A program made the translations under genes and the position numbers. A DNA stretch of 24,588 nucleotides from a virus, in IMG/VR virus record IMGVR_UViG_3300002040_000429, positions 1 through 24,588 of that record, one strand, 5' to 3'. This document shows positions 8,419 through 24,588 of the stretch, piece after piece (the first letter of the stretch is position 1; every line of letters starts with the position of its first letter). The notes under the pieces were generated by a model. That model saw only the letters and a list, made by a program, of their open reading frames with translations, searched no databases and had not been told where the DNA came from.

Positions 8419-8831
8419 ATCCATCAGAACTTGCAAACTTAGTAGAAAAAGTAGGGATACCTCTGTTAACAGCAGGTGCTGCTGGTTATGCTTTATGGTG
8501 GTTAATCCGTTGGTTAACAACATCTTTTAAAAAAGATTTAACAGCAGACCATGAGCAGTCTATTAATGAGATAAGAGATTTAAAAGAAGAATTAGATGAA
8601 GAAGTTAGAGACACAAGAGAAATTTTATCTAAAGAATTACAAGCATTAAATACAATGACAGTAAGATTAGTAGATAGAATTAGAACTTTAGAATTAAATT
8701 TTATAGAGCATGATGAAACAGTTAGAGCATTGTATGGTTTGACTAGGGCTAATAGAAGAAGAACTAGGCATGAAACTGTAGAAGATTTGCATGAACAAAT
8801 TAAAGATGCAGGAAAAACTAATGGCGACTAA
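8415..8831 (+). CDS. membrane-anchored coiled-coil protein, holin or inner-spanin candidate
   Basis: This 138-residue protein has one hydrophobic segment at about 14-34 (GIPLLTAGAAGYALWWLIRW). A long heptad-like helix follows at about 40-95 (DLKEELDEEVRDTREILSKE and onward), then a basic tail. This layout, an N-terminal anchor plus coiled coil, fits an Rz-type inner spanin or a BhlA/UviB-like small holin. The position among the last late genes also fits a lysis role. A structural anchor protein is an alternative. The start overlaps the previous stop by four bases. It is only a candidate, because no family-defining motif is visible and the matching lysis partner is not adjacent. Confidence 0.6.
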   Translation: MNPSELANLVEKVGIPLLTAGAAGYALWWLIRWLTTSFKKDLTADHEQSINEIRDLKEELDEEVRDTREILSKELQALNTMTVRLVDRIRTLELNFIEHDETVRALYGLTRANRRRTRHETVEDLHEQIKDAGKTNGD

Positions 8832-9120
8832 AAAAAGAAAACCCTCTAATATGAAAGGCATCACTATTAAAGGTGGATACAAACGTCCTACTAAAAAAGG
8901 TGCTGGTATGACTGCTAAAGGTGTTGCAAAATATCGTAGACAAAATCCTGGAAGTAAGTTAAAAACAGCAGTGACTGAAAGCAAACCTCGTACAAAAGCT
9001 AGAGCAGCTAGACGTAAGAGTTATTGTGCAAGGTCAGCAGGTCAAATGAAAAAATTTCCTAAAGCTGCTAAGAATCCTAATAGCAGACTTAGACAAGCTA
9101 GAAGAAGGTGGAAGTGCTAA
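8821..9120 (+). CDS. small highly basic protein, marine-phage type (KGVAKYRRQNPGSKLKTAVT family)
   Basis: This protein has 99 residues with very high Lys/Arg content. The segment MTAKGVAKYRRQNPGSKLKT, the later RRKSYCAR and the terminal RRRWKC match a small protein I recall in many marine phage genomes (possibly the DUF6321 family, from memory). I chose the ATG at 8821 (MATKKRKPS) because it has an AGGA site ten bases upstream and starts like the next gene (MATKKRK). The upstream in-frame ATGs lie deep inside the preceding gene. It overlaps that gene by 11 bases. Nucleic-acid binding is likely from charge alone; whether it is packaged or acts in the cell is unknown. Confidence 0.75.
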   Translation: MATKKRKPSNMKGITIKGGYKRPTKKGAGMTAKGVAKYRRQNPGSKLKTAVTESKPRTKARAARRKSYCARSAGQMKKFPKAAKNPNSRLRQARRRWKC

Positions 9121-9314
9121 TGGCTACAAAGAAACGTAAAACAAAGAGTAGAGTAAATGAGGCTGGAAACTATACGAAACCTACATTACGGAAACGAATA
9201 TTTGCAAGAATTAAAGCTGGTAGCAAAGGCGGAAAGCCTGGGCAATGGTCAGCAAGAAAAGCACAGATGTTGGCGAAAGCCTACAAAAAAGCAGGAGGAG
9301 GATATAGAAGCTAA
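9120..9314 (+). CDS. small basic protein with GGKPGQWSARKAQ motif
   Basis: This 64-residue protein starts at the ATG that shares one base with the previous stop (TAATG). Residues about 34-62 (IKAGSKGGKPGQWSARKAQM then LAKAYKKAGGGY) match a short conserved module I recall from marine phages and large algal viruses (possibly DUF5872). An upstream in-frame ATG at 9108 is less likely because it lies inside the previous gene. Strong positive charge suggests nucleic-acid binding. Its codons are richer in G and C than those of the ejection genes. Confidence 0.75.
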   Translation: MATKKRKTKSRVNEAGNYTKPTLRKRIFARIKAGSKGGKPGQWSARKAQMLAKAYKKAGGGYRS

Positions 9315-9559
9315 TGGCAAAAGGAGTCCCACATTTTTTCAAAGACGGAAAGGCACATGGGTCTGATGGAATGGCTGCGTACCATAAAATGAAAGATGGT
9401 ACATTACATTCTGGTGCAACTCATACTGCTACAAGTAAAAAACTTTTTCATTACAATGAACTTTCTAAAACTGCACAGAAAAAAGCTAAACCAGTTTATG
9501 ATAAATTTTTAACAAAGAAGAAAAAAAATGGCACTCAAAAAAAGTCAAAGAAGTCTTAA
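9314..9559 (+). CDS. small basic protein, HFFKDGKAHGS type
   Basis: This 81-residue protein has a histidine-rich N-terminal half (GVPHFFKDGK, YHKMKDGTLHSGATH, KLFHYNEL) and a Lys-rich tail. I recall relatives beginning MAKGVPHFFKDG in marine phage genomes, always near other small basic proteins. It is coupled to the gene before by a one-base overlap, and the strong GGAGGAGG at 9294-9301 serves as its ribosome-binding site. Several His residues could bind metal. The function is unknown. Confidence 0.75.
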   Translation: MAKGVPHFFKDGKAHGSDGMAAYHKMKDGTLHSGATHTATSKKLFHYNELSKTAQKKAKPVYDKFLTKKKKNGTQKKSKKS

Positions 9560-9776
9560 AGCATGGACCAAACAAAAGTGGCGAACCAAGTCTGGGAAGA
9601 AATCAAGCAAAACTGGGGAGAGATACTTGCCAGAGAAAGCTATCAAAGCCCTGACACCTGCGGAGTATGCGGCAACGACAAGAGAGAAGCGAAAAGGAAC
9701 AAGAAAGGGCAAACAGTTTGTGAAGCAACCGAAGAGAATTGCAAAGAAAGTTAGAAAATATAGGAGGGTTTCTTAA
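9528..9776 (+). CDS. small highly basic protein (GERYLPEKAIKAL motif)
   Basis: This 82-residue protein is Lys/Arg-rich throughout, with the conserved-looking core SLKAWTKQKWRTKSGKK, GERYLPEKAIKALTPAEYAA and KGKQFVKQPKRIAKK. I recall this protein type in marine phages and other aquatic viruses, with no assigned function. It overlaps the preceding gene by 32 bases, the longest overlap in this arm. Codon choice is distinctly richer in G and C (GCG, CCG, CTG, AAG) than in the late genes to its left, which suggests a recent arrival or a constraint from a second frame. Nucleic-acid binding is the obvious guess. Confidence 0.75.
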   Translation: MALKKSQRSLKAWTKQKWRTKSGKKSSKTGERYLPEKAIKALTPAEYAATTREKRKGTRKGKQFVKQPKRIAKKVRKYRRVS

Positions 9777-9925
9777 TGGATTTAACTTCTACTTCTTCTT
9801 GTAAAACTGAAACGTGTGATATGCCAAATTGTGATTGTATGTGTGGAGATTGTATTGAAAACTTAGTAGCAGATACTTGTCAATGCACTTGTCATTTTTT
9901 AGAAGATAGTCCTCTTAAAATTTAG
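9776..9925 (+). CDS. 49-residue cysteine-rich protein, metallothionein-like
   Basis: This protein has 49 residues with nine cysteines at 9, 14, 19, 21, 23, 26, 35, 37 and 39, followed by H40. Four CxC pairs are visible in CDCMCGDC and CQCTCH. That density and the CxC spacing fit metal binding (Zn, Cu or similar) and resemble small metallothioneins, though no family is recognised. The start is well supported: AGGAGG at 9762-9767 lies eight bases upstream, and the ATG shares a base with the previous stop. It is the last gene of the + arm, and its stop overlaps the stop of the converging gene by four bases. An isolated zinc-finger-like regulator is the alternative. Confidence 0.7.
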   Translation: MDLTSTSSCKTETCDMPNCDCMCGDCIENLVADTCQCTCHFLEDSPLKI

Positions 9926-23177: not shown

Positions 23178-23388
23178 TCGTACCTCCATCATCATCTACG
23201 TTAGGTCTATTCCTACCCATAGCAAACTCACCTAGAGTTTTCTTTTTATCTTTAGTTTCAATAGCCATAGCCCACAGTGAACAGACCACAACAGTAGGCA
23301 AAACAAATACCATCTGCTCTGTTAGAAAGGCAACTGTCCAACAAGGAATTAAGACCACTAAAGATTTTTTAATTAATGCTACTATCAT
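23170..23388 (-). CDS. small membrane protein, two hydrophobic segments
   Basis: This 72-residue protein has two adjacent hydrophobic segments (VALIKKSLVVLIPCWTVAFL and MVFVLPTVVVCSLWAMAI) followed by a charged, Asp-rich tail (NRPNVDDDGG). The function is unknown; it could be an envelope-modifying early protein or an exclusion factor. Its ATG shares one base with the preceding stop (TAATG). Confidence 0.55.
   Translation of the reverse strand: MIVALIKKSLVVLIPCWTVAFLTEQMVFVLPTVVVCSLWAMAIETKDKKKTLGEFAMGRNRPNVDDDGGTNE
23172..23191. repeat. 20-bp ribosome-binding-site/start cassette, copy 2
   Basis: This is the partner of 22903-22922 at the start of the 50-residue gene; both have GGAGGTAC five bases before ATGAGT. 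Confidence 0.6.
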
Positions 23389-23768
23389 TAGTATAACTCC
23401 GCCTCAAAATTACAAGAACCATTTTCATTAACACAGTCTAAAATTTCATTACCTAATTGTAAACGTGCATACCACACTAGTAACTCTGTCAATCGTTCTT
23501 TAGATACTTTTAAATGTTCTTCTAATTCTTTAGATGTATATCCATTATGTTCCTCAAAGAAAGCATCTATCTTTTCTTTGAAATCTCCTAATTGCATTAC
23601 ACAAAATTCAATACCAGAGATAATACTTTCTTTATGTTCATCTTCATCAAAGTAGTATTCCAAAGTATTAGGAGCTTCTCCTGTACTTCCAAAGAAATCT
23701 GCATCATCACTATCTTGAACGGCAAACCAAAATTTACCATTGATATCTCCACGATAGTATCTACCCAT
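23388..23768 (-). CDS. conserved-type hypothetical protein (MGRYYRGDINGKFWFA)
   Basis: This 126-residue protein has an N-terminal motif MGRYYRGDINGKFWFAVQDS followed by DDADFFG, which I recall from proteins of unknown function in phages and marine metagenomes. The second half is helical and charged (SKELEEHLKVSKERLTELLV). It ends in an acidic tail. AAAGGAG precedes the ATG, which overlaps the upstream gene by eight bases. No enzymatic motif is visible. Confidence 0.65.
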   Translation of the reverse strand: MGRYYRGDINGKFWFAVQDSDDADFFGSTGEAPNTLEYYFDEDEHKESIISGIEFCVMQLGDFKEKIDAFFEEHNGYTSKELEEHLKVSKERLTELLVWYARLQLGNEILDCVNENGSCNFEAELY

Positions 23769-23916
23769 TAGTCTTCTCCTTTAATAATTGTAAATATTTA
23801 GTGTGATAATAATGTAATTGTTTTTCTAATTCCATTATCTCTCTCTTTAACATCTCTTCTCTTGTTAAAACTTTAGGAGCATCTTTAAGATACTCAAACT
23901 CTTCATCACCATGCAT
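23761..23916 (-). CDS. 51-residue helical small protein
   Basis: The protein (MHGDEEFEYLKDAPKVLTRE and onward) has a coiled-coil-like middle (EEMLKREIMELEKQLHYYHT). Its ATG follows GGAAAGGATAAGCT, and its end overlaps the next gene by eight bases. It is the first gene after the structured 118-base gap described separately, so its ribosome-binding site may be controlled by RNA folding. No family is recognised. Confidence 0.55.
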   Translation of the reverse strand: MHGDEEFEYLKDAPKVLTREEMLKREIMELEKQLHYYHTKYLQLLKEKTNG

Positions 23917-24034
23917 AGCTTATCCTTTCCTTAAATGTGAGTGGTAGGTGTGTAGGTTCTGAACTATGGAAGGAAGGATACTGATACAAAACCTACACTA
24001 AAGACTCTACCATGCCTAAAGGACTACCAGTATC
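23917..24034 (-). promoter_or_regulatory. structured leader: two interleaved inverted repeats and a ribosome-binding site that can be sequestered
   Basis: This is the longest gene-free stretch of the window. On the - strand, arm A (24036-24025, AGGATACTGGTA) can pair with A' (23986-23975, TATCAGTATCCT): 12 pairs, one of them G-U. Arm B (23998-23990, GTGTAGGTT) pairs perfectly with B' (23958-23950, AACCTACAC). The order A-B-A'-B' gives a pseudoknot or two mutually exclusive hairpins. An outer TGGTAG (24012-24007) can pair with CTACCA (23947-23942). The TATCCTT in A' also complements AAGGATA in the ribosome-binding site (23927-23921) of the next gene. Arm A overlaps the upstream stop codon. A cis-acting RNA switch is the best reading; a small RNA is an alternative. 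Confidence 0.5.
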
Positions 24035-24196
24035 CTAACTGATAATACCTTTTGTTTTTACAAATCGTTTACTAACTTGTTTTTTAATCTCTTCTTTTAT
24101 TTGTTTGTTTCTTTCTGGAGTTAATCCTATAACCTCAACTCTAGAATCAAACCAATCTTTTTCAGAAGATTTGTCCTTAGTATTTTTACTAGACAT
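24035..24196 (-). CDS. 53-residue basic small protein
   Basis: The protein (MSSKNTKDKSSEKDWFDSRV and onward) is charged, with a helix rich in Lys and Glu (TPERNKQIKEEIKKQVSKRF). AAAGGAG lies eight bases before the ATG. Its stop codon is part of arm A of the downstream inverted repeat. No family is recognised. Confidence 0.55.
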   Translation of the reverse strand: MSSKNTKDKSSEKDWFDSRVEVIGLTPERNKQIKEEIKKQVSKRFVKTKGIIS

Positions 24197-24211
24197 TAAA
24201 CATACTCCTTT

Positions 24212-24588
24212 CTATTTATCACAAACATAAAATAAATGATTATCTACTTGTCCTAAATATACCATACATTCTGCAAAAATCCAATAAGGAGTAACAAAAG
24301 GAGTATGATAATGCGTAGCACCTTGCACACTCGCAATCGTTGCTCCAGATGCAATAAAAAATTCTACTGCTTTTTTTACTTCACCTAAATCTCGCAGATT
24401 ACCAAATCGTTCTGGTTTCCCATCACACCAATAAGAGAAAGCACACTTATACTTTACAGGCATACCCTCTCTATACACTCCATCATGCACAACTCCACAG
24501 ATAGAGTTAGGAAAGTAACGAGAGTCTACTCTTTCAAGTATGACATTAATTACTGCTACTTTCCCTGCTAAACTTTCTCCTCTTGCTT
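24212..24588 (-). CDS. SleB-type cell-wall hydrolase, 5' end outside the window
   Basis: The frame is open to the window edge: the GTG at 24490 is an internal Val codon, and the sequence continues upstream as ARGESLAGKVAVINVILERV and DSRYFPNSICGVV. ARGE (catalytic Glu), the FPNSICGVV turn, CAFSYWCDG, GATHYHTPFVTPYW and the final HLFYV match the Hydrolase_2 (SleB/CwlJ) family, which cleaves peptidoglycan glycan strands. The visible part has about 124 residues, nearly the whole domain. In this phage it could be the endolysin or act on the wall early in infection. Its place in the early arm recalls T7, whose lysozyme gene is also outside the late region. Confidence 0.85.
   Translation of the reverse strand, partial: ARGESLAGKVAVINVILERVDSRYFPNSICGVVHDGVYREGMPVKYKCAFSYWCDGKPERFGNLRDLGEVKKAVEFFIASGATIASVQGATHYHTPFVTPYWIFAECMVYLGQVDNHLFYVCDK

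Follow-up and report, generated by a model that had tools for sequence, protein, structure and literature searches.

To our knowledge, natural pseudoknots in the mRNAs of DNA phages have seldom been described. In the rpsO/S15 and alpha operon/S4 operators, the binding of a protein to an mRNA pseudoknot that overlaps the start codon region controls translation. In the repZ/repA leaders of IncI-alpha and IncL plasmids, whether a pseudoknot forms depends on termination of a ribosome at an upstream leader frame; the pseudoknot joins a loop to a site beside the rep start, and activates translation. In SAM-II, a pseudoknot occludes the Shine-Dalgarno sequence (PMC9373788). The operator of T4 gene 32 is a phage mRNA pseudoknot of two coaxially stacked helices, placed 67 nt upstream of the start codon, and an A+U-rich stretch that follows the pseudoknot covers the ribosome-binding site (PMC3014915). 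We describe here what is very probably a real, undescribed RNA element in the mRNA of an uncultured marine phage, with a knotted three-stem fold.

The window, which is the whole stretch of DNA that was analysed, corresponds to the 24.6 kb virus record IMGVR_UViG_3300002040_000429. Its primase/helicase is closest to those of the Pelagibacter phages HTVC103P, HTVC104P and HTVC115P, at 51-52% identity. The element occupies an intergenic gap on the minus strand (23917-24034), with a gene for a 53-aa protein on the 5’ side and ORF51 on the 3’ side. This gap had been singled out, in a reading made from the sequence alone, as a 118-base interruption of an arm where genes overlap; its length is indeed 118 nt from stop to start, and the description of the arm is roughly true, although other gaps of about 100-150 nt occur on the same arm. 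The product of ORF51 is a coiled-coil-like protein of 51 aa, and an orphan that matches no single-strand-binding family. Downstream of ORF51 lies a 126-aa gene (ORF126, 23388-23768, minus strand) of phrog_33624, a phage family of unknown function found at 35 viral-contig loci, in which the best DNA similarity sits at the 5’ end of the gene and its ribosome-binding site. Elsewhere in the window, a simple scan of the gap between the convergent plus and minus gene arms (9777-9921) found no intrinsic-terminator-like site, and the plus strand at 8791-9776 encodes, after the structural genes, several small proteins in a row that are very rich in Lys and Arg, one of which matches DUF6321.

The same element was identified ahead of an ORF51 homologue in a diverged viral contig, IMGVR_UViG_3300009603_001145 (hereafter L134). 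The features of the locus in the window are as follows:

24035..24196, minus strand: upstream orphan gene, 53 aa; its TAG stop codon (24035-24037) overlaps P1
23942..24041, minus strand: whole conserved element, a three-stem H-type pseudoknot (CAGUUAGG start, P1, P2, J2/3 and P3); 85% identical to L134:1026-1126 though non-coding, with a score of 123 bits there
24025..24036, minus strand: P1 5’ arm (A), AGGAUACUGGUA; starts within the stop codon of the upstream gene and forms 12 pairs with 23975-23986
24007..24012, minus strand: P2 5’ arm, UGGUAG; a U-A pair in the window is G-C in L134, changed on both sides
23999..24006, minus strand: J2/3 bulge, AGUCUUUA; faces a 2-nt strand (AC) and is identical at 8 of 8 positions in the alignments with L134
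23987..23998, minus strand: P3 5’ arm (B), GUGUAGGUUUUG; abuts A’ directly, with 12 pairs in the window and 11 in L134
23975..23986, minus strand: P1 3’ arm (A’), UAUCAGUAUCCU; pairs with A
23950..23961, minus strand: P3 3’ arm (B’), CAGAACCUACAC; pairs with B
23942..23947, minus strand: P2 3’ arm, CUACCA; pairs with 24007-24012
23921..23933, minus strand: ribosome-binding-site region of ORF51, UAAGGAAAGGAUA; outside the modelled pseudoknot
23761..23916, minus strand: ORF51, the downstream gene, 51 aa; starts 25 nt past P2 and is homologous to L134 1155-1316

P1 and P3 each consist of 12 pairs, one of them G-U, and P2 wraps P3 across an 8-by-2 internal loop, the long side of which is AGUCUUUA. 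Most of this architecture had been anticipated by the sequence-only reading. The 12-pair inverted repeat of 24025-24036 with 23975-23986 is present as placed, with its one G-U pair; the 9-pair repeat of 23990-23998 with 23950-23958 is also present, and grows to 12 pairs (23987-23998 with 23950-23961); the arms are interleaved in the A-B-A’-B’ order that it had claimed, and the TAG stop codon at 24035-24037 overlaps A. The third helix, P2 (TGGTAG with CTACCA), had been overlooked. The distance from B to A’ is 0 nt in both the window and L134, which is a hallmark of H-type pseudoknots whose helices can stack coaxially, the stacking itself being predicted. We assign the element to the H-type class on its interleaved A-B-A’-B’ helices, on covariation between two lineages, with double-sided changes in one pair of P1 and one of P2, and on the absence of an inter-helix loop from both sequences.

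L134 was found by searching viral contigs with the P3 arms, the other matches being unrelated and due to chance. Its ORF51 homologue (1155-1316) is 41% identical to ORF51 over the alignment (E 5e-10). Nine substitutions separate the paired positions of the two elements, yet 29 of the 30 pairs are retained, so that the compensatory changes that had been named as a check on the structure are found in this homologue. All 12 pairs of P1 are kept, with four of them changed, one of these four on both sides; these counts were made on an ungapped anchor, as the MAFFT alignment places a gap wrongly in the P1 5’ arm. The two double-sided changes are at position 11 of P1 (U-A to A-U) and position 1 of P2 (U-A to G-C), four further changed pairs stay paired by moving to G-U or back, and one terminal pair of P3 is lost. 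Retention of this extent has a probability of 0.0002 if substitutions are placed at random, and of 0.011 if the sites are fixed and the bases random. The segment lengths (window/L134) are 12/14, 8/8, 0/0, 13/12 and 2/2, and the block P2a-J2/3-P3a-A’ is identical at 37 of 38 positions, compared with 75-86% DNA identity in the neighbouring coding genes. Because a G-U pair on the sense strand would be A-C on the opposite strand, the constraint is on the sense RNA, which argues against a DNA palindrome.

The gene upstream of the element in L134 (184-1032) encodes a 282-aa protein, weakly DUF932-like but below the curated cut-off, and no significant similarity was found between it and the 53-aa protein of the window. 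The element thus stays with ORF51 while the upstream gene differs. Both upstream genes end in CAGUUAG, and in each phage P1 takes in the stop codon from its second base onwards. The last ~50 nt of the two genes (24035-24196 against L134:184-1032) also share AAGTTAGTAAA and AAGGT..TT..CAGTTAG, and this common 3’ end may be what a deletion left behind, or may mark a joint made by recombination at the element. Since some 3’ sequence (AAGTTAGTAAA, AAGGT) is shared, the overlap of P1 with the stop codon could be inherited by descent rather than selected.

The structure is more than chance would give, and in a second lineage compensatory substitutions on the sense strand preserve it. When the 131-nt region was shuffled 20,000 times with its dinucleotides preserved, interleaved stems both scoring at least 25 never arose (observed scores 27 and 28), and 15 of the shuffles attained 22. 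Of the interleaved pairs on the window’s minus strand P1/P3 is the best, and other phage DNA, about 0.7 Mb with both strands counted, had no interleaved site scoring at least 25. For L134 taken alone, one of 20,000 shuffles equalled its interleaved scores. The minimum free energy of nested folding, a calculation blind to pseudoknots, is ordinary (z = -0.57, with 48 of 200 shuffles equally stable), and on this measure the region does not stand out from shuffled sequence. The helix energies are -19.7 kcal/mol for P2 and P3 together and -15.7 kcal/mol for the P1 duplex, against a nested optimum of -25.7 kcal/mol. With the usual pseudoknot penalty of about 10 kcal/mol taken off, the summed helices are estimated to lie near or below the nested optimum. 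Elements of this kind are overlooked by nested folding statistics, and are detected by a scan for interleaved stems combined with a relative.

Among the sequences searched, the element is narrowly distributed. Two independent lineages are known to carry it, those of the window and of L134, and a third, near-identical contig (L119, 6,774 bp, 99% identical) has the element unchanged. A search with a covariance model of the P2 and P3 helices, covering all the loci together with 50 complete records, returned only the window lineage and L134; the covariance search that had been proposed for related marine phages recovered the element in L134 but added no further lineage. Weaker covariance matches (for example in L103, L133 and HTVC103P) were set aside as chance, either on inspection or because they fall within coding genes. 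The element is missing from the 35 loci with ORF126 relatives and from records related through other genes. The proteins used as bait (ORF126, the hydrolase, ORF51, the 53-aa gene product and the DNA polymerase) led either to relatives without the element or to contigs that stop short of it, as in L121-L123 and L125, whose replication genes are about 80-90% identical to those of the window and which stop before the element region. A looser pattern of J2/3 plus A’, run over viral and bacterial genome contigs, gave chance matches only, besides L119 and L134. The strict pattern found nothing in bacterial genomes, and no relative of the element was found in named phages. Perfect GTGTAGGTT/AACCTACAC hairpins were noted in other phage contigs, at L128:12662-12722, L126:349-384 and L129:5921-5953, and are apparently unrelated to the element. 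Rfam 15 gave no match in the window at the gathering score, and nothing relevant over 23700-24300 at E<=10. The lack of an Rfam match, together with the compensatory changes seen in an independent relative, gives good support to an undescribed structured RNA; of the undescribed RNA switch that had been proposed, the structured RNA thus stands, while the masking of the ribosome-binding site is not supported.

The best explanation, to which we give about an even chance, is a cis-acting mRNA pseudoknot in the intercistronic region of the early arm, which controls or insulates ORF51 and the genes that follow. The folded pseudoknot, 25-28 nt upstream of the start codon, would control ORF51, and perhaps genes beyond it, as the operator to which a protein or ligand binds at J2/3, with the identical AGUCUUUA bulge as the putative and likely recognition site. 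A terminating ribosome covers roughly a dozen bases past the stop codon. Because P1 begins in the stop codon, it would be opened at each termination, while P2 and P3 could persist; that termination and P1 should be mutually exclusive is the firmest part of the proposed mechanism, and in line with it the masking of A by a ribosome at the upstream stop, as put forward earlier, finds the start of P1 inside the stop codon conserved in both phages. The folded state would then report that the upstream gene is not being translated. Classical termination-reinitiation was rejected as a mechanism, as the distances from stop to start of 118 nt in the window and 122 nt in L134 are too long, and a distance of ~20-38 nt already nearly abolishes such coupling (PMC10666635).

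The main rival to an operator or insulator, possible but clearly less probable, is a barrier for mRNA stability or processing, in which the pseudoknot stops exonucleases or marks where cleavage occurs; the polycistronic early mRNA would then decay separately on its upstream and downstream sides, and the translation of ORF51 would not be gated. The element starts exactly where the upstream gene ends in both phages, its fold is stable, the ribosome-binding site is left outside the helices, and around the element there is neither an intrinsic terminator (a G+C-rich hairpin followed by a T run) nor a clear promoter-like signal, all of which suit a barrier. In contrast, J2/3 is identical and the element is tied to ORF51, not to the gene upstream, which suggests a role beyond that of a simple barrier. 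A bolder extension of the operator reading, which we offer tentatively and hold to be somewhat less probable than the barrier, is a new class of element, in which a pseudoknot fused to a stop codon senses upstream translation and switches the next gene, possibly with a ligand or protein at the AGUCUUUA bulge.

The switch proposed by the sequence-only reading is unlikely. There, a terminating ribosome masks A and leaves A’ to repress the ORF51 site, whereas P1 forms and the site is free if the upstream gene is untranslated. A’ is complementary to AAGGATA (23921-23927) in the downstream ribosome-binding site, as had been claimed, and pairs with UAAGGAAAGGAUA in the window through 7 contiguous pairs, or up to 11 with a bulge (-12.2 kcal/mol); in L134 the pairing with the ribosome-binding site is weaker (6+3 pairs with a mismatch, -8.9 kcal/mol), although A overlaps the stop codon in both phages. 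Among the start regions of each sequence, the pairing of A’ with the Shine-Dalgarno of ORF51 ranks third of 40 in the window and sixth of 13 in L134, and for this reason is not specific; a CCUU segment would pair about this well with any Shine-Dalgarno. The repression of the site by a freed A’ is therefore not borne out. Only about 9 nt or more lie between P2 and the ribosome-binding site, and for A’, inside the P3 loop, to reach that site, opening of the conserved helix P2 would probably be needed.

A little less likely again is an RNA embedded in the operon that is either a small phage RNA acting in trans or a self-cleaving RNA of an uncharacterised kind: the element is compact, conserved and highly structured, as such an RNA would be, but it sits tightly between co-directed genes, promoter-like and terminator-like signals are absent from its flanks, and it matches no ribozyme family even at E<=10. 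Chance pairing, or a palindrome acting in the DNA as a protein-binding site or origin, is very improbable; it would agree with the occurrence in two lineages only and with a nested fold no more stable than shuffles, and is opposed by the tests on interleaved stems, the pair retention in L134 and the confinement of G-U pairs to one strand. Least likely is a recoding signal, with the pseudoknot directly 3’ of the UAG stop stimulating readthrough or frameshifting, since P1 starts inside the stop codon with no spacer and the extensions made by readthrough, 13 residues long in the window and 10 in L134, would both end soon, in unrelated sequence that is not conserved.

The virus is related to the phages of Pelagibacter, a very abundant ocean bacterium, and its conserved three-stem pseudoknot, beginning in a stop codon, offers a compact and testable case of an RNA whose fold each terminating ribosome would reset. 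Of the known systems, the T4-type gene 32 operator is the nearest in layout, as a coaxial pseudoknot in a phage leader upstream of the start, with an A+U-rich stretch over the ribosome-binding site after it. The two have no detectable sequence relation, and the element differs in its 12-pair P1 and P3, its extra outer helix P2 and its 8-nt bulge, in preceding ORF51 rather than the gene for a single-strand DNA-binding protein, and in its fusion to the upstream stop codon; gene context, helix sizes and the third helix rule out membership. The element resembles the SAM-II and preQ1 riboswitches as a compact pseudoknot before a gene, possibly with a ligand at conserved unpaired bases, but its modelled helices, which are much longer, leave the Shine-Dalgarno outside, and it matches no Rfam family. 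The rpsO/S15 and alpha operon/S4 operators reach the start codon region, whereas the element ends 25-28 nt before the start codon. With the IncI-alpha and IncL leaders, where homology was compared through Rfam only, it shares a pseudoknot whose formation is tied to termination at an upstream frame; in the element, by contrast, a complete gene stands in place of the leader frame, and the pseudoknot would be opened by the ribosome that terminates there.
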